From NCBI GenBank assembly GCA_905182905.1, contig CAJJDH010000003.1, positions 1 through 43,196 on the forward strand: 43,196 nt of DNA, given 5' to 3'. This DNA is from a marine gamma proteobacterium HTCC2089 (GTDB lineage: Bacteria; Pseudomonadota; Gammaproteobacteria; Pseudomonadales; Azotimanducaceae). The translations under genes and the position numbers were made by a program. This document shows positions 36,378 through 43,196 of the stretch, in pieces (the stretch's first letter is position 1; each line of letters starts with the position of its first letter). The notes beneath the pieces were generated by a model. It had not been told where the DNA came from. It ran no database searches and saw only the letters and a program-made list of their open reading frames with translations.

Positions 36378-37283
36378 ATGCATTTTCTCAAAGCAACCTT
36401 AGCCTTTATTGCCATTGTAATTGCGACAGTCTGCATGTGCACTGCGCTTACTTGGTGGGCCACCAAACTGTTGTGGTTAAAAGGCTCCGCCCGCTCGCAA
36501 AATCTGCAGAAGATGGATAAGGTCATTATTGGGTGGACTAAAGCTAATCGCTGGACCTTCAAGAAACTGAATTTAGTCAACGTCAATATTACTTGGCATG
36601 ACCAAGAACAAGTTTCTCCGGAAAACTGGTACTTGGTAGTTTGCAACCACCAAACTTGGACAGACATCTTGTTACTCCAAACCTATCTCTTAGATGATTT
36701 ACCACCGCTCAAATTTTTCACCAAAGCACAATTGATTTGGATCCCCTTTATTGGACTTGCTATGTATGCACTGGGATTCCCTTATGTTAAGCGGGTTAAT
36801 AAGGCGCAAATCAAACAAAAACCTGAGCTACGTAACGCCGACCGCGACAACGTCTTGATGGCGTGTGAGCGGTTTAAAAACCACCCGACGAGTATTCTTA
36901 ACTTTGTTGAAGGCACCCGCTATACGAGAGAAAAACATGGGCGCCAAAATAGCGAGTTTAAGAATTTGTTACGGCCCAAGGCTGGCGGGATAGAGTACGT
37001 GCTGCAGGGTATGGACCAGCACCTGCACCGACTTGTTGAGGTCACTCTAGTTTACCCGGACGCAGTGCCGTCCTTTGGCTATTTTTTACAGGGTAAATGT
37101 CAGCGGGTAGATATTGATATACGGCATCATGCGATACCCGATTGGACCTCCACCCCAGAAACCACCGAACGCAAAACAGAAATCGTGCAATGGGTGAAAA
37201 ATATTTGGCTAGCAAAAGACCAGCGTATTACCCAAACCATGGAACAGTACGAGATTAACCCAGTACAGTCTGAGCAACTCTAA
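36378..37283 (+). CDS. Acyltransferase, PlsC/YihG-like lysophospholipid acyltransferase
   Basis: A 301-residue membrane acyltransferase from ATG 36378. An N-terminal membrane segment (ATLAFIAIVIATVCMC) precedes the HX4D motif NHQTWTD (H91, D96), then FFTKAQLIWIPFIG, and the EGTRYT block (E178) with FVEGTR. These four blocks define 1-acylglycerol-3-phosphate acyltransferase-type enzymes, with closest look to E. coli YihG. The GC-poor 5' extension to 36312 overlaps the aminopeptidase gene and is not needed. The 3' end overlaps the next, convergent, gene by 4 nt. Role: phospholipid acyl remodelling at the inner membrane, by family. Confidence 0.87.
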   Translation: MHFLKATLAFIAIVIATVCMCTALTWWATKLLWLKGSARSQNLQKMDKVIIGWTKANRWTFKKLNLVNVNITWHDQEQVSPENWYLVVCNHQTWTDILLLQTYLLDDLPPLKFFTKAQLIWIPFIGLAMYALGFPYVKRVNKAQIKQKPELRNADRDNVLMACERFKNHPTSILNFVEGTRYTREKHGRQNSEFKNLLRPKAGGIEYVLQGMDQHLHRLVEVTLVYPDAVPSFGYFLQGKCQRVDIDIRHHAIPDWTSTPETTERKTEIVQWVKNIWLAKDQRITQTMEQYEINPVQSEQL

Positions 37284-38029
37284 AGACCTGGCGTTGAGGC
37301 TGGGGCAATCTGCCTACTAATATTGGCTAGGGCTTTCTCCAATGCAACTATACGCTTGTTCACAGCCAGCCTATTAGCATCCATTGCTAGCACCGCTTCG
37401 CTATTGTCTTTCACTTGACCACTCAGCTCAGAGTTAAGGTTAGCGACAGATTGAGAGGCAATATTGGTTTTATCCGTAAGATCACGCTGCACTCTGAGCA
37501 TTTGCTGCACTTGTAATTCTAGGCTGGTCAATTGATCTATAACGGTTTGCTGATCTGCCAAAGCTTCATCATGGCGACTACTGGCGGCCTTTAGATCTCT
37601 GTTACTAGCCAGAACACCTCTCATCGATTGATCTAATTTGGCAACTTTGCTTTGATTTTCCTTAATCCAGTTGCGGTTGCGCTCATTGGCAATTGACCAC
37701 AATTTGCGAATTTCAGATTCCCAAAGATTTATCTGTTGCTTTGTATCTTCCCCGCCTTGGCTCATGGCGCTATCTGTAGCGGAGAGGCGCTCTTCAAGTT
37801 TAATCAAGCGGCTATCAGCACTTTTTAATTCTGCTTCCGTTGCGACCAAAAGTTGCTGCTGGTTAGCGATAAACCAGCCGGCACCCAACAAACCCGCTAC
37901 CAGCAACGCAAGGATAAGGGTATTGGCTAAACTGCGCCCAGAATTGCTACCTTGCGACCTGCGACTATTGCTTTGGCGATAGTTGCCTCCAGCTTGAGTA
38001 GAGAGCGGATCTTCTGGCATGTCACTCAT
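37280..38029 (-). CDS. Membrane-anchored coiled-coil protein, unknown
   Basis: A 249-residue protein. The first 32 residues are a polar, Ser/Arg-rich cytoplasmic segment, then comes one membrane helix (TLILALLVAGLLGAGWFIA, about 37-55). The rest is heptad-like helical coil rich in Gln, Glu, Leu and Ala (ELKSADSRLIKLEERLSATD and onward to 240). No enzyme motif is visible. The shape resembles envelope scaffold or division proteins such as those anchoring to cell-wall machinery, but I cannot name a family. Its start faces the 416-nt gap before the Hvf operon. Confidence 0.65.
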   Translation of the reverse strand: MSDMPEDPLSTQAGGNYRQSNSRRSQGSNSGRSLANTLILALLVAGLLGAGWFIANQQQLLVATEAELKSADSRLIKLEERLSATDSAMSQGGEDTKQQINLWESEIRKLWSIANERNRNWIKENQSKVAKLDQSMRGVLASNRDLKAASSRHDEALADQQTVIDQLTSLELQVQQMLRVQRDLTDKTNIASQSVANLNSELSGQVKDNSEAVLAMDANRLAVNKRIVALEKALANISRQIAPASTPGL

Positions 38030-38445
38030 AAAAATCTCACATTTCGATTAGCCAAGAGTATAAAAACTAATCCAGCGAAAGAAAGGTTTTCTCGGCACTT
38101 TTTGTGTTTTCGACACATTCTCAAGAGAACAAATGAGACTAGAGGAAAATCACAAATTGCCAAGCCTACTGTTGCCGACAACTTTTCTTAACAAAATTTT
38201 GCATCTAACGGCGGCTAAGTCGTCATATTTTGCCCTCATGCTTTACCGCTGAACACCCAAACCCTCTACTTTATACAGATAACTAGACCGCTTATCTGAC
38301 AAACGACCCCACTCAACAATCTGCAAAGCCGCTCCCTCCAAATACTCGTAATCTCTAGATTCGTGAATCAAAACCTCAAAATTTAGGCTTTGGGTCCGCT
38401 AAGTTAAATTGAAAATATTCCGAATAAAATAGTAAGGAGACTGAA
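38030..38445. promoter_or_regulatory. Gene-free leader and promoter region before the RiPP operon
   Basis: A 416-nt stretch with no plausible gene. It must hold the promoters of the divergent coiled-coil gene and the rightward hvf operon. GATTC-GT-GAATC (38358-38369) is a 12-bp interrupted palindrome about 77 nt before the hvfA start and is a candidate operator. The region is AT-rich near the start. AAGGAG (38434-38439) is the hvfA ribosome site, 6 nt before the ATG. I cannot place a confident sigma-70 -35/-10 pair; an alternative sigma factor is possible. Confidence 0.5.
38358..38369. promoter_or_regulatory. Interrupted palindrome upstream of hvfA
   Basis: GATTC and GAATC are perfect inverted halves around GT. 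The site is 77 nt from the hvfA start codon and could be an operator for copper or oxidative control. No regulator gene is adjacent. Assignment is speculative. Confidence 0.35.
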
Positions 38446-38850
38446 ATGTCTAACAAGTTAGTTAAATCACCTTTATCCATTGCCGTAAGCGCTGCACTAA
38501 GTGTTTCTGTAGCCTGCATCCCATCTGTGAATGCGGATCAAAATCCATTCGCCATGAAAGAACTAAATTCTGGCTACATGCAGTTTGCCGAAGGCAAGTG
38601 CGGCGAAGGTAAATGCGGTGAGTCCAAAGGCGACGAAGGCAAATGCGGCGAAGGCAAGTGCGGTGAGTCCAAAGGCGGCGAAGGCAAATGTGGTGAAGGC
38701 AAGTGCGGTGAGTCCAAAGGCGGCGAAGGCAAATGTGGCGAAGGCAAGTGCGGCGAGTCCAAAGCCAGCGAAGGCAAGTGTGGCGAAGGCAAGTGCGGTG
38801 AGTCCAAAACCAGCGAAGGCAAGTGTGGCGAAGGCAAGTGCGGTAGCTAA
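38446..38850 (+). CDS. hvfA: HvfA-like RiPP precursor (bufferin-type), twelve EGKCG motifs
   Basis: A 134-residue secreted precursor. Residues 1-30 are a Sec signal peptide (SPLSIAVSAALSVSVACIP, cleavage likely after VNA). After an 18-residue spacer come five 15-residue units EGKCGEGKCGESKxx (xx = GD, GG, GG, AS, TS) plus EGKCGEGKCGS. That gives 12 EGKCG motifs and 12 core cysteines. In HvfA and bufferin-type RiPPs an MNIO enzyme converts the cysteines of such motifs to oxazolone/thioamide or thiooxazole groups that bind copper. Immediately followed by the MNIO, DUF2063 and DoxX genes. Strong ribosome site AAGGAG. Modification and copper binding are by homology, not shown here. Confidence 0.9.
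   Translation: MSNKLVKSPLSIAVSAALSVSVACIPSVNADQNPFAMKELNSGYMQFAEGKCGEGKCGESKGDEGKCGEGKCGESKGGEGKCGEGKCGESKGGEGKCGEGKCGESKASEGKCGEGKCGESKTSEGKCGEGKCGS
38590..38847 (+). repeat. Tandem 45-bp coding repeats in hvfA
   Basis: Five full 45-bp units and one partial unit. Units differ mainly in the last two codons and in third-base changes (AAG/AAA, TGC/TGT). The high DNA identity points to recent expansion or gene-conversion-like homogenisation, so copy number may vary between strains. The same repeat creates long open frames on all strands, which are artefacts. Confidence 0.9.
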
Positions 38851-38858
38851 TAGGTACC

Positions 38859-39704
38859 ATGTCTCCTAAGCCAGTAATGAGCGGCGCAGGTCTTGGTCTG
38901 CGCCGCTCCTTTATCGATGATCTTTCTACAAGCTTCCCTCAGTCGGTTAACTTTTTAGAAGTTGCGCCAGAAAATTGGATTGATGTAGGCGGCCGTTTCG
39001 CTGCGGCTCTAGAACATGCAACCTCTCACGCGCCCCTAGTCTGTCACGGCTTATCTCTCAATCTCGGAGGATTGGCACCAATTGATGAAGCTTTTGTACA
39101 TCGAGTAAAAAACTTTTTGGCAACTTTTCAAGTTACACACTACAGCGAACACTTAAGTTATTGCGCTGACGAAGGTCACCTTTATGACCTAATGCCAATT
39201 CCATTTACGAGTGCTGCAGTTAACCACGTAGCTGACAGAATCAAACGTGTCCAAGACATTTTAGGCCACCGCATAGCCGTAGAGAACGTTTCCTATTACG
39301 CAGCCCCGGGCAAAAGTATGGACGAAATTGAGTTCCTTAATTCAGTCTTAGAACAAGCTGATTGCCAACTTCTGCTCGATGTTAACAATATTTATGTAAA
39401 CAGCATCAATCACAACTACGACCCAGTCGATTTTCTGCAAGCTTTACCAGGTGACCGAATCGCATATGGACATATCGCCGGTCACTACAACGAGGCCGAA
39501 GACTTGCTGGTCGACACACATGGCGCGGATATAATTGATCCGGTCTGGTCGCTTCTTGAACAAGCCTATGATCATTTTGGCGTTTTCCCAACACTACTAG
39601 AACGGGACTTTAATATTCCCTCCGTTACGGACTTAATATCCGAGGTAGACCAGATAAGTGCTATCCAGGAAAAATTTGCCACCTCCGCAGAAGTACGGGT
39701 CTGA
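38859..39704 (+). CDS. hvfB: DUF692 multinuclear non-heme iron oxidase, HvfB-like RiPP maturase
   Basis: A 281-residue DUF692 (MNIO) TIM-barrel protein: EVAPENW, HGLSLNLGG, THYSEHLSYCADEGHLYDLMPIPF, IAVENVSYYA, LLLDVNNIYVNSINH, RIAYGHIAGHYN, VDTHGADIIDPVW and ERDFNIPS appear in order. The His, Asp, Asn and Glu in these blocks form the multi-iron site. Enzymes of this family oxidise cysteine in the adjacent precursor peptide to copper-binding heterocycles. It begins 8 nt after the precursor stop, and the next gene starts 4 nt after its own stop. The operon order and sequences match HvfB. Confidence 0.93.
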   Translation: MSPKPVMSGAGLGLRRSFIDDLSTSFPQSVNFLEVAPENWIDVGGRFAAALEHATSHAPLVCHGLSLNLGGLAPIDEAFVHRVKNFLATFQVTHYSEHLSYCADEGHLYDLMPIPFTSAAVNHVADRIKRVQDILGHRIAVENVSYYAAPGKSMDEIEFLNSVLEQADCQLLLDVNNIYVNSINHNYDPVDFLQALPGDRIAYGHIAGHYNEAEDLLVDTHGADIIDPVWSLLEQAYDHFGVFPTLLERDFNIPSVTDLISEVDQISAIQEKFATSAEVRV

Positions 39705-39708
39705 ATCA

Positions 39709-40488
39709 ATGCAAGCAAATTTCAAAGAGGTACAAAAAGCCTTTACCGCCCATATGCGAGATCCTTCAGTAAACTCTGGGCCAGCGGATATCGAAGATAG
39801 AAGGCTGAAAATTTATCGAGACCTAGTTTTCAATAACATTAACTCCTTGATCTCCGGCAGCTTTCCAGTTCTGAAAACCATTTATCCAGACCAAAAATGG
39901 TTATCTCTGATAAGGGCTTTTGTTCGAGACCATATCTCGCACACACCACATTTCCCTAAAATGCCACAGGAATTCTTAACGTTCCTAAAAGAAGTAGAGC
40001 AACAGGGTACCCTTGAATTTCCCTTTACCTGGGAACTAGCACACTACGAATGGTTAGAGCTGGCTATTGATTTAGATACCCGCAATATCATTCACAAACC
40101 TGCGGCTAACGCGGAATTATTTCTTGAGCAATGTCCTGTAATAAACCCTATCTCCACTACTGTAGGGTTTAACTGGCCCGTCCATGAAATCGGGCCAGAC
40201 CACCTACCAGAAGAGTTGCCAGAACAACCTACCTATATCGTTGTGTACCGAAATGCAGGACTCAAAACGGGTTTTATGGAATTGAACCCGCTTGCTGCCA
40301 TGTTGTTAGAAAAAATCAGCGCAGACGAAAATCGAACTGGGCAAGAAATTTTGCTACAGATCAGTAAAGAAATAGATCACCCCGACCCAAGCATAATTGT
40401 TCAGGGCGGCTGTGAATTGATGTACCAAATGACAGCTAAACACATCCTTTTGGGCACGCAAAAAAAACATAAGCAAGCGAAAACTTAA
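39709..40488 (+). CDS. hvfC: DUF2063 protein, HvfC-like RiPP maturation partner
   Basis: A 259-residue DUF2063 protein from ATG 39709: N-terminal QANFKEVQKAFTAHMRDPS, RLKIYRDLVFNNINSLISGSFPVLKTIYP near 40, then RAFVRDHISHTPHFPKMPQEFLTFL and ELAHYEWLELAID near 110. These are the family signature; such proteins form a complex with the DUF692 enzyme and help bind the precursor. The C-terminal part (about 150-250) is an extension with FNWPVHEIGPDHLPEE. An upstream GTG at 39658 is possible but overlaps hvfB by 47 nt. Starts 4 nt after hvfB. Confidence 0.9.
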   Translation: MQANFKEVQKAFTAHMRDPSVNSGPADIEDRRLKIYRDLVFNNINSLISGSFPVLKTIYPDQKWLSLIRAFVRDHISHTPHFPKMPQEFLTFLKEVEQQGTLEFPFTWELAHYEWLELAIDLDTRNIIHKPAANAELFLEQCPVINPISTTVGFNWPVHEIGPDHLPEELPEQPTYIVVYRNAGLKTGFMELNPLAAMLLEKISADENRTGQEILLQISKEIDHPDPSIIVQGGCELMYQMTAKHILLGTQKKHKQAKT

Positions 40489-40520
40489 CCCTCTATATAC
40501 CTCTAGCAAGGAGCTTTCCC

Positions 40521-41114
40521 ATGATTATTAGTCTAGCCACCAAAGCACAAATGTACTTAGACAAGATCAACGTCACAGACTTTATCGCCCCTCTTCTACT
40601 CAGACTTTATTTGGTACCAGTTTTTTGGATGGCCGGGTCCATGAAGCTTGGCAGTATGGAAAGCACCATTGAATGGTTTGGCAACCCTGATTGGGGCCTA
40701 GGTCTCCCCCTACCATTTCTTATGGCGTGGGCGGCTACACTCACCGAGGTAGTCGGCGCGATCTTCTTATTCTTTGGCTTTGCAACTCGGTGGATTTCTA
40801 TTCCGCTGATTATCACTATGATTGTTGCAGCGGTTACAGTGCACTTACCTAATGGTTGGCTAGCAATTGCGGAAGGTGGCGGGCTGTTTGCAACCGAAAG
40901 AACAATGGGGGCGATTCAACGCTTGGATAGAGCCAAAGAGATTTTACAAGAGAATGCAAACTACAGCTGGCTTACCGAAAAAGGCAGCCTTGTGATTCTT
41001 AACAATGGAATTGAATTCGCGGCAACGTATACCATTATGCTGGTAGCACTACTTTACATTGGCGCGGGTAAGCTAAGCTTAGACCACCTTATCGCCAAAC
41101 GTTTTCAACGTTAA
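40521..41114 (+). CDS. DoxX family membrane protein of the Hvf operon
   Basis: A 197-residue four-helix membrane protein. The first helix block APLLLRLYLVPVFWMAGSMKLG is the DoxX opening. The second and third (LPLPFLMAWAATLTEVVGAIFLFFGFATRW, ISIPLIITMIVAAVTVHLPNGW) follow, and the last is TYTIMLVALLYIGAGKLSL. A soluble insertion lies between helices 3 and 4 (ERTMGAIQRLDRAKEILQEN), larger than in basic DoxX. Proteins of this type often complete MNIO RiPP operons, and their role in copper or redox handling is not settled. AAGGAG lies 7 nt before the ATG. The operon ends in two terminators. Confidence 0.88.
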   Translation: MIISLATKAQMYLDKINVTDFIAPLLLRLYLVPVFWMAGSMKLGSMESTIEWFGNPDWGLGLPLPFLMAWAATLTEVVGAIFLFFGFATRWISIPLIITMIVAAVTVHLPNGWLAIAEGGGLFATERTMGAIQRLDRAKEILQENANYSWLTEKGSLVILNNGIEFAATYTIMLVALLYIGAGKLSLDHLIAKRFQR

Positions 41115-41130
41115 CGCACCGGCAATATTA

Positions 41131-41158
41131 GCCAAAGACACTTTTGGCGCAATTTTTT
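41131..41158 (+). terminator. First terminator after the Hvf operon
   Basis: GCCAAA (41131-41136) pairs with TTTGGC (41143-41148) and is followed by GCAA and six T. It is a modest stem. The stronger one follows at once. Confidence 0.5.
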
Positions 41159-41162
41159 AAAC

Positions 41163-41193
41163 AAAAAAAGGCGATCTAAGGATCGCCTTTTTT
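41163..41193. terminator. Strong bidirectional intrinsic terminator
   Basis: GGCGATC (41170-41176) and GATCGCC (41181-41187) form a perfect 7-bp stem around TAAG. Seven A precede and six T follow, so it can stop the Hvf operon (+) and the convergent membrane gene (-). Confidence 0.9.
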
Positions 41194-41239
41194 GCGCCGC
41201 GGCCACTAACGGGCAGCAGCTGATCTATATTTTGATTTC

Positions 41240-41890
41240 TTATAGAACCCGCAGGATACCCGCAAGTAATACAGTCAAAACTAGGCCTGAAACAATCACA
41301 CCACGAACTGTAGTCAGTGGTCCTTGCTTACCAAACATCGCATTACCTTGCAGCAGTGCAATGATCACCAAACACGCAATAATTGCATTGGTGTTAGAAG
41401 CAATGCCACCACTCGAAAGGTGGGCACTTGACCCCATAAACCACAACATGGGCATTGAGAACAATGTGTTGGTACGCGAAGCAAGACCCGCTTTAGGTGC
41501 GGCTGCCGCAGCTGCTGGATCTGGTTCGTTACCAGCAGCGACCCCTTGATTCGACTCAACAATGATCTTTTGATTTGGCCAAATAATGAGCCAAACGTTA
41601 AGGAACATTAACGTACCCAGAGTTGCGCCAACTGTAATATCGCTTGTTAGACCAGTATGACGATAACCAAGAAGTACGACTCCTGTTAGAAAGGTACCCA
41701 TTGCACCCCAACGGAACCACCATAAAGCACGCGGCGCTAACTTCGAAAATGCGTCCACTCTTGCATTAGGTTCAGCTTCTTTAAAATACTCAGTTTGAAC
41801 AAAGTTAAAGTAGTAAAGTAATCCTATCCATGTAATACCGAACAAGACGTGGGCGTACCTCGCCAAGTAATCCATCATCGCAGCGTCCAT
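41240..41890 (-). CDS. Urate_ox_N-like multi-pass membrane protein (PuuD N-terminal domain)
   Basis: A 216-residue membrane protein with about five to six helices: YLARYAHVLFGITWIGLLYYFNFVQ at the N terminus, then FRWGAMGTFLTGVVLLGYR, TLMFLNVWLIIWPNQKIIVES, and three helices after residue 135. The opening YAHVLFGITWIGLLYYFNF and LIIWPNQ blocks match the membrane domain of PuuD-type urate hydroxylase (PF06181). The C-terminal cytochrome c part of PuuD is missing and is not encoded beside it, so urate oxidation is unproven. An Ala/Pro-rich cytoplasmic loop (DPAAAAAAPKAG) is notable. AGGGGA precedes the ATG. Confidence 0.7.
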   Translation of the reverse strand: MDAAMMDYLARYAHVLFGITWIGLLYYFNFVQTEYFKEAEPNARVDAFSKLAPRALWWFRWGAMGTFLTGVVLLGYRHTGLTSDITVGATLGTLMFLNVWLIIWPNQKIIVESNQGVAAGNEPDPAAAAAAPKAGLASRTNTLFSMPMLWFMGSSAHLSSGGIASNTNAIIACLVIIALLQGNAMFGKQGPLTTVRGVIVSGLVLTVLLAGILRVL

Positions 41891-42090
41891 AAAATCCCCT
41901 AGTGTTATTGCGAGCTATTGCTCTGGAAAACGACTACGGAAGGATAACGAATAGCACTTCAAGGCACCAGTAAAAGCCAAATGAATCATGGTATTTCGTA
42001 ATGGACTGTAACTCTTCTACCCAATATTTGAGCTTTTCACATGAAGCGCCATGAGCCGCAGGTGCAAATTACCGCTGGAGTATGTTTGCC

Positions 42091-42124
42091 AAAACAAAAA
42101 AAACCCGGCTAAAGCCGGGTTTTT
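42091..42124 (-). terminator. Intrinsic terminator of groEL
   Basis: ACCCGGC (42103-42109) pairs with GCCGGGT (42114-42120) around TAAA. On the minus strand the stem is followed by a T-rich run from the A-tract at 42091-42102. It lies 20 nt after the groEL stop. The mirror-image T-run makes it possibly bidirectional. Confidence 0.88.
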
Positions 42125-42143
42125 AAAGCTAGTGTAGATTGCT

Positions 42144-43196
42144 CTACATCATGCCGCCCATATCCGGCATACCACCAGGCATTCCGCCTCCGGCACCACC
42201 TTCATCAGGCTGATCGCTTACCATAGCTTCCGTTGTGATCATAAGACCCGCAACAGAAGATGCAGCTTGAAGCGCTGTTCTGGTCACTTTAGCTGGATCA
42301 AGAATACCCATTGCCAACATATCACCGTACTCACCGGTGGCTGCGTTGTAGCCATCGTTACCACCTAGGGCTGCAACCTTGTCCAAAACAACCGCGCCTT
42401 CAACACCAGCGTTGTGAGCGATTTGACGCAATGGCGCGCTCATAGCACGTACCGCTAAAGCAATACCTACTGCTTGGTCTTCGTTATCGCCGACAGCACT
42501 CTCAGCTGCAGCAATAGCACGTACCAATGTCACACCACCGCCAGGCACGACGCCTTCTTCAACGGCTGCACGAGTTGAATGCAGTGCATCTTCTACTCGA
42601 GCTTTCTTTTCTTTCATTTCTACTTCAGTTGGTGCGCCAACCTTAATCACTGCAACACCACCAGCCAACTTGGCTAGACGCTCTTGAAGTTTTTCACGGT
42701 CGTAGTCTGACGAAGTGTCTTCGATTTCTGCACGAATCTGCTTGATTCGACCTGCAATCTCTTCCTTGTCACCAGCGCCATCAACAATAGTTGTATTTTC
42801 TTTTGATGAAGCAACACGCTTAGCTGTACCAAGATCTTCTAAAGTTGCGCCCTCTAAAGTTAGGCCAACTTCTTCAGAAATCACTGTGCCGCCAGTCAAT
42901 ACTGCAATGTCTTGCAACATTGCTTTACGACGATCACCAAAACCAGGTGCTTTAGCCGCAGCAACTTTAACAATACCGCGCATGTTGTTTACAACTAGAG
43001 TTGCCAGTGCTTCGCCTTCGATGTCTTCAGCAACCACGATCAACGGCCGACCTGCTTTTGCAACGTTTTCTAAAATAGGCAGAAGATCTCGGATGTTAGA
43101 GATTTTCTTGTCACACAAAAGAATGAAGGGGTCTTCATGCTCAGCAGCCATAGAATCTTGGTTGTTGATGAAGTAAGGAGACAAATAACCGCGATC
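42144..43196 (-). CDS. groL: Chaperonin GroEL, C-terminal part (runs off the window)
   Basis: 350 residues of GroEL, starting inside [13 protein letters not shown], near residue 195 of the usual 548. [21 protein letters not shown] and the [23 protein letters not shown] block are the apical domain. The equatorial half has [36 protein letters not shown], and it closes with the Gly/Met tail [10 protein letters not shown]. The N-terminal ATP-binding part and any groES lie beyond the right edge. The open frame fills the window to its last base, so it is truncated by the edge rather than broken. Role: ATP-driven protein folding. Confidence 0.97.

Follow-up and report, generated by a model that had tools for sequence, protein, structure and literature searches.

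Gene content of the operon

The window (the whole 43,196-nt stretch of DNA analysed here) carries a four-gene operon on the + strand at 38446-41114, with intergenic gaps of 8, 4 and 32 bp. The genes and their flanking features are listed below.

38340-38391, + strand: block 5' of hvfA, presumed promoter or regulatory element, conserved in the genus
38446-38850, + strand: hvfA, EGKCG-type captophorin precursor, 134 aa; array at 38590-38847 with 12 EGKCG motifs in 6 pairs
38859-39704, + strand: hvfB, multinuclear nonheme iron oxidative enzyme (DUF692, MNIO), 281 aa
39709-40488, + strand: hvfC, DUF2063/RRE partner protein, 259 aa
40521-41114, + strand: hvfX, DoxX-like membrane protein, 197 aa
41131-41155, + strand: possible terminator 3' of hvfX, 7-bp stem with a T-rich tail; weak

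The start of hvfC is the ATG that we read from the sequence; the ORF list begins at an upstream GTG (39658). Three overlapping ORFs that the array also contains (94, 132 and 87 aa) were taken as shadows of the repeat in other frames and set aside.

Searches with NCBIfam models gave scores above cut-off for HvfB (NF003818, HvfB family, 431 bits against 360), HvfC (NF050145, 265.8 against 142), HvfX (NF050144, 220.5 against 80), which adjoins the other genes on the same strand, and the HvfA repeat domain (NF050137, 118.1 bits in five stretches against 19.5). The HvfA equivalog model in the narrow sense (NF050188) reached 77 bits, under its cut-off of 95. In Pfam, HvfB matched PF05114 (MbnB_TglH_ChrH, 343.7 bits), HvfC matched PF09836 (DUF2063, 80.2 bits) and PF22106 (NGO1945_C, 78.3 bits), HvfX matched PF07681 (DoxX, 73.1 bits), and HvfA had no match. 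By sequence, the nearest solved structures are the MNIO of PDB 3bww for HvfB (E 7.6e-70), from Histophilus somni, and the PME1 protein of PDB 3dee for HvfC (E 9.9e-9), from Neisseria gonorrhoeae (source organisms from PMC13097082). Two other identities for HvfB were rejected, the bufferin maturase BufB (NF050167, 269.3 bits, under the cut-off of 310) and the methanobactin enzyme MbnB (TIGR04159, 48.6 bits, far under the cut-off of 325). The preliminary description had proposed, from gene order and motifs, a copper RiPP operon of the HvfA/bufferin class, and this family assignment holds on the four NCBIfam matches above cut-off. Judged by its sequence, 38446-41114 is an ordinary member of the EGKCG-type captophorin (oxazolin) operons, correctly placed in its family and with no exceptional status.

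Downstream, convergent with the operon, a small protein on the minus strand (41240-41890) matches Urate_ox_N at 69.5 bits; an NCBIfam search with it gave no match. A second MNIO cluster (L001) lies on the minus strand of another contig (C33, 683-2842) of the same genome, which thus has two peptide systems of this kind. Its precursor is of BufA2 type (NF050166, 141.1 bits in two stretches, cut-off 60), with a duplicated six-Cys domain and, by eye, a lipoprotein-like start. The BufB maturase of this cluster scored 382.7 bits (cut-off 310) and its HvfC-like partner 72.9 bits, under the cut-off of 142.

The HvfA precursor and its array

HvfA begins with a signal-peptide-like start (with VNA-DQ, judged by eye only), followed by the stretch DQNPFAMKELNSGYMQFA and then by twelve EGKCG motifs. 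These are spaced 5,10,5,10,...,5 residues apart throughout and thus repeat every 15 residues, forming six EGKCGEGKCG pairs joined by the five linkers ESKGD, ESKGG, ESKGG, ESKAS and ESKTS. Tandem Repeats Finder reported a 45-bp unit in hvfA with 5.7 copies and 93% matches. The motif gaps and the Tandem Repeats Finder result together bear out the earlier account of twelve motifs with a 15-residue period, paired motifs and ESKxx linkers. When the 86-aa core was shuffled 100,000 times with its composition preserved, no shuffle had more than two EGKCG motifs, so the real array is far beyond chance.

The units vary at silent sites (Lys as AAG in 8 and AAA in 4 motifs, Cys as TGC in 8 and TGT in 4, the last Gly as GGC in 6 and GGT in 6), and the twelve motifs are identical in protein despite these changes. 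Since the longest exact direct repeat in the array is 44 nt, misassembly is unlikely, as judged from the assembled sequence alone. A thirteenth cysteine, Cys24, lies within the signal-peptide-like start. Lipoprotein anchoring through it was considered and rejected: the third position before it is Ser and not Leu, Val or Ile, and a locus of the same genus (L034) has Ile in place of Cys24. AlphaFold2 run on the precursor alone gave a mean pLDDT of 41.3 and was uninformative, also with regard to a published beta-helix model.

Active-site positions of HvfB

We aligned 15 HvfB sequences, hand-chosen from the loci and including that of the window. H63, H98, E142, D174, N177, H205, H209, D219, H221, E248 and D250 are invariant in all 15, as are R15, R16 and F251. 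Incomplete iron ligands in the DUF692 protein would, by the preliminary description, have spoken against its reading; at the positions checked, the ligands are intact throughout this alignment. Iron-ligand positions other than those paired below with published residues are ones we take to be ligands from general knowledge of MNIOs. By motif, N177, D219 and H221 of the window would correspond to N175, D242 and H244 of the characterised HvfB, which are essential for activity (PMC13419390 section 23). Matched in the same way, R15, R16, D250 and F251 appear equivalent to Arg15, Arg16, Asp249 and Phe250 of FonB, positions tied to EGKCG substrates (PMC13097082).

Frequency of long and regular arrays

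Motifs were counted with the pattern [EDAGSKQN][GAE][KSRQAEM]CG, which is wider than EGKCG and inflates some counts (L082 has 16 by this pattern with 4 EGKCG, L131 has 15 with 10). The named-genome set comprised the best 80 of at least 584 confirmed HvfB-like places from a scan with the HvfB alignment. In the retrieved DNA of these best 80, an HvfA-like repeat ORF was present at 62 loci, hvfC at 79 and hvfX at 33; with 18 loci lacking a precursor ORF by the counting motif and 6 having a partial one, 56 complete precursors were left. The family and genus sample held 37 loci, after prior removal by hand of 12 loci of L003-L051 (10 repeats of counted genes, plus L036 and L048, cut by contig ends); five more were set aside as partial or containing N, and the 32 complete precursors include the window's own and that of the possible chimera L040. 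This sample leans to long arrays because it was mostly drawn from the best matches to the repeat-domain model.

Motif number ranged from 2 to 16 (median 6) in the 56 complete named precursors from the best 80 of at least 584 loci, with 12 or more in 7 of them, and from 2 to 14 (median 8) in the family and genus sample, with 12 or more in 5 of 32, window included. A published member has 58 cysteines (PMC12452194 section 15). The array had been called unusually repetitive; against these counts, twelve motifs are high but within the known range. Paired arrays that are perfectly regular and have four or more motifs were found in 11 of 32 precursors of the family sample and in 3 of 56 of the named set (best 80 of at least 584). 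Their periods range from 15 to 19, and 15 is the period of 6 of the 11 in the family sample, the window among them. The only longer regular array in both samples (the named one again being the best 80 of at least 584) is that of L113, with 16 motifs and a period of 17. What is uncommon in the window is only the combination of twelve motifs with zero irregularity. Between neighbouring motifs of the named set (best 80 of at least 584), a spacing of 5 was commonest (161 gaps), followed by 11 (48) and 10 (44), which makes the tight motif pair a general trait, with single motifs also occurring.

The HvfA repeat domain was found in 64 of 200 sampled genomes of the window's family, and 18 of 40 genomes of the genus (own genome included), among them 13 of its 21 high-quality ones, had an HvfB at E <= 1e-60. 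A plasmid search with HvfB returned 342 records, all below 60% identity, and there is therefore no close plasmid copy in the collection searched.

Evolution of the array within the genus

The window's leader recurs in three genomes of the same genus, G162 (L016/L034), G050 (L018/L035) and G070 (L032); the remaining genus genomes have different leaders. Of 48 leader residues, 47 are identical to the window in G162 and all 48 in G050. The array has six motifs in G162 and four in G050, both in the 15-residue register, and in G070 it is cut by the contig end and has one extra Glu in the linker. As relatives with the same leader have six and four motifs at the same period, array length changes by whole units of 45 bp. 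Linker Ser is encoded by TCC in all five window units and by TCT in the linkers of the three relatives (2/2, 1/1 and 1/1), a pattern suggesting expansion or homogenisation of arrays inside single lineages.

At the nucleotide level, the 48 leader codons differ from those of the window at 21, 22 and 19 positions in G162, G050 and G070, with 1, 0 and 0 amino acid changes, respectively. For hvfB, 49 of 177 changed codons alter the amino acid in G162 and 51 of 172 in G050. Comparing replacement changes between leader and hvfB gave Fisher P values of 0.048 (G162) and 0.0013 (G050), from two tests that are not independent.

For Microbulbifer, leader conservation next to a core that varies between five and eight Cys has already been reported (PMC12538549). 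We put forward tentatively, and with considerable doubt, that a fast-changing 45-bp coding array (12, 6 and 4 motifs) behind a leader kept nearly unchanged by selection might let these bacteria adjust how much copper a single peptide can take up, each unit counting for one two-thiooxazole site and the enzyme staying the same; in the parts of the literature on the class that we consulted, no statement of tuning by strict units was found. The natural series of one leader with 4, 6 or 12 sites would be handy for determining how many sites per substrate an MNIO processes, and would show whether Cu(I) uptake climbs stepwise, one per cassette.

Two further loci were noted. In G195 (contig C28, L037), hvfB has two in-frame stops and the precursor reads six motifs, which may represent a decaying copy or sequencing errors. 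At L040 (2-376), four EGKCG motifs run in frame into the beginning of a coiled-coil-like protein, itself similar to the window protein at 37280-38029 (minus strand) that is divergent to hvfA; lying at the contig start of a 58% complete genome, this fusion is perhaps a chimera.

Possible flanking signals

In the 52-nt block at 38340-38391, 50 of 52 columns are invariant across four genomes of the genus, whose leader codons differ at about 13-15% of nucleotides. The stretches from G162 and G050 fall slightly short of the start codon (by 18 bases for G162), which leaves the block unaffected. Its 26-base core occurs once in the window's own genome at up to 3 mismatches. The block contains GATTC-GT-GAATC, and among 89 upstream regions GATTC-N2-GAATC was found in 4, belonging to the window and the three genomes that share its leader. 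A sigma-70-type scan of 38030-41240 gave two sites, neither of them upstream of hvfA, and a search of 37000-43196 with Rfam gave eight matches, each under the gathering score of its family. The case for a terminator at 41131-41155 is weak because six such sites occur in the region with 3.2 expected.

A fixed rule set the start codons behind the 89 upstream regions, and at L039, L051, L072 and L075 at least it chose the wrong one. A pattern resembling an ECF-sigma site, GGAA[CT][CG]-N13-17-GGTCNT, was present in 9 of these regions (L003, L004, L005, L009, L010, L017, L028, L030 and L031) with a mean of 0.06 and at most 1 in shuffles. Having been written after enriched words were viewed in the same sequences, the pattern makes this excess a lead and not a test; it hints at ECF control of the operon in part of the family.

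These data also bear on the notion that the operon is hardly expressed or decaying in this lineage, with a drifting array, to which we give very little credence. Its patchy presence in the genus (18 of 40 genomes), the two internal stops in hvfB of G195 and the expression not seen in Microbulbifer (PMC12538549) would fit such decay; the window's four open frames, motifs that stay identical in protein despite silent changes, and a strongly conserved leader and upstream block all speak against it.

Proposed chemistry and copper binding

In characterised relatives, HvfB and its required partner HvfC oxidise Cys to 5-thiooxazole with the loss of 4 H each, the likely active cofactor is a mixed-valent diiron centre, and the products bind copper (PMC13097082, PMC13419390, PMC12538549, PMC12452194). 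The EGKCG-type group is now assigned 5-thiooxazole and not oxazolone/thioamide (PMC13097082; PMC13419390), and of the chemistries offered in the preliminary description (oxazolone/thioamide or thiooxazole) only the latter, as 5-thiooxazole, stands for these relatives. All EGKCG cysteines are modified in HvfA (6; PMC13419390), FonA (7; PMC13097082) and Microbulbifer MmrA (6; PMC12538549). MmrA is made up of two-Cys cassettes with modification at both positions: each cassette lost 8 H, and single Cys mutants lost 4 H (PMC12538549). The question left open earlier, whether all cysteines are modified or pairs act as copper sites, is thus largely answered for relatives as far as modification is concerned.

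By analogy with these systems, the chemistry, export, copper binding and role of the window's peptide may be pictured as follows. HvfC, via its RRE domain, would bind the HvfA leader and present the repeat core to HvfB, an iron enzyme that would oxidise each EGKCG cysteine to a 5-thiooxazole with the loss of 4 H, which for all twelve together would amount to about -48.4 Da. The modified peptide would exit by Sec, bind Cu(I) via its thiooxazole sulphurs, probably mostly pairwise per cassette, and sequester excess copper, with HvfX as an accessory membrane protein. The differing unit number of the 45-bp array behind a near-constant leader would make the capacity of a single peptide larger or smaller.

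The number of bound Cu(I) may be about six, and both this number and the pairwise arrangement are our own inference. Bulbicupramide, taken to be the excised cassette-1 12-mer of MmrA, binds Cu(I) (PMC12538549). FonA bound at most four Cu on its seven sites, with stochastic binding and Cu-induced aggregation suspected by the authors (PMC13097082), which disfavours an orderly model of one Cu per pair; the maximum itself would roughly fit one per two sites.

It is unlikely, in our estimation, that modification stops short of the whole array, reaching for instance a single Cys of every pair or the leader-proximal units, while the other thiols bind metal in the manner of metallothionein. The MNIO landscape study raises the need for a threading mechanism on long precursors (PMC12452194), and context matters, as a one-repeat substrate derived from FonA was unmodified and a two-repeat one was modified (PMC13097082); against this stand the full modification of HvfA, FonA and MmrA and the hydrogen losses of the MmrA cassettes and single mutants.

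Bufferins enhance growth under copper stress (PMC12452194). For the Microbulbifer genes in E. coli the enhancement was only slight. In Microbulbifer the proteins went undetected, also when copper was added, and the authors are hesitant to assign copper protection (PMC12538549), both of which count against the proposed reading. A copper-acquisition peptide (a methanobactin-like chalkophore) instead of a copper sink would find support in the Pfam family that the maturase shares with MbnB and in the term chalkophore-like used for the Microbulbifer product (PMC12538549). We give it little credence, as the MbnB model scored only 48.6 of 325 bits and published 5-thiooxazole pathways are described as responding to copper excess, gold or oxidative stress, whereas methanobactin is induced by copper starvation (PMC13097082).

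Overall, we put the probability at roughly nine in ten that this is an HvfABCX operon of the EGKCG captophorin (oxazolin) class with the full proposed mechanism of 5-thiooxazole formation, export, copper sequestration and scaling by unit number. The reading builds directly on the gene set, the family membership of HvfB, HvfC and HvfX, the conserved ligands, the array and the differences in copy number; the HvfA equivalog score (77 against 95) counts against a full fit to the class.

Comparison with known systems

The chemistry of this peptide class has already been worked out, and what the operon contributes is a clean 12-site substrate of perfect periodicity. Nontypeable Haemophilus influenzae has an oxazolin operon, hvfABCX, with the same four kinds of protein and paired EGKCGEGKCG motifs; its HvfA has three AEGKCGEGKCG units with 6 modified Cys (PMC13419390), whereas the window has six pairs with ESKxx linkers, and the window's HvfA departs from the H. 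influenzae type in falling under the cut-off of the equivalog model. The bulbicupramide (mmr) system of Microbulbifer likewise combines EGKCG in two-Cys cassettes with an MNIO, a DUF2063 protein and a leader that is conserved while the core varies, and for it the two-Cys cassettes, the modification of both Cys and the leader/core contrast are already published; the named set mmrABC contains no DoxX gene, unlike the window with hvfX, and its core of five to eight Cys compares with 12 EGKCG Cys in strict 15-residue units here (PMC12538549). Fontiphorin (fonABC, Fontimonas thermophila) also has an EGKCG-type substrate and an MNIO with Arg-Arg and Asp-Phe substrate-side residues, with seven sites and a minimal cluster limited to precursor, MNIO and partner (PMC13097082). 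The Buf_EGKCG/oxazolin type 1 precursors of the MNIO landscape are likewise tandem repeats with two EGKCG each, with the core genes precursor-MNIO-DUF2063-DoxX, and carry a Sec signal peptide, where the window's precursor has a start that looks signal-peptide-like by eye; their repeats are described as 17 residues long, in contrast to the 15 residues of the window and of five further loci of the family sample (PMC12452194 for the published precursors).
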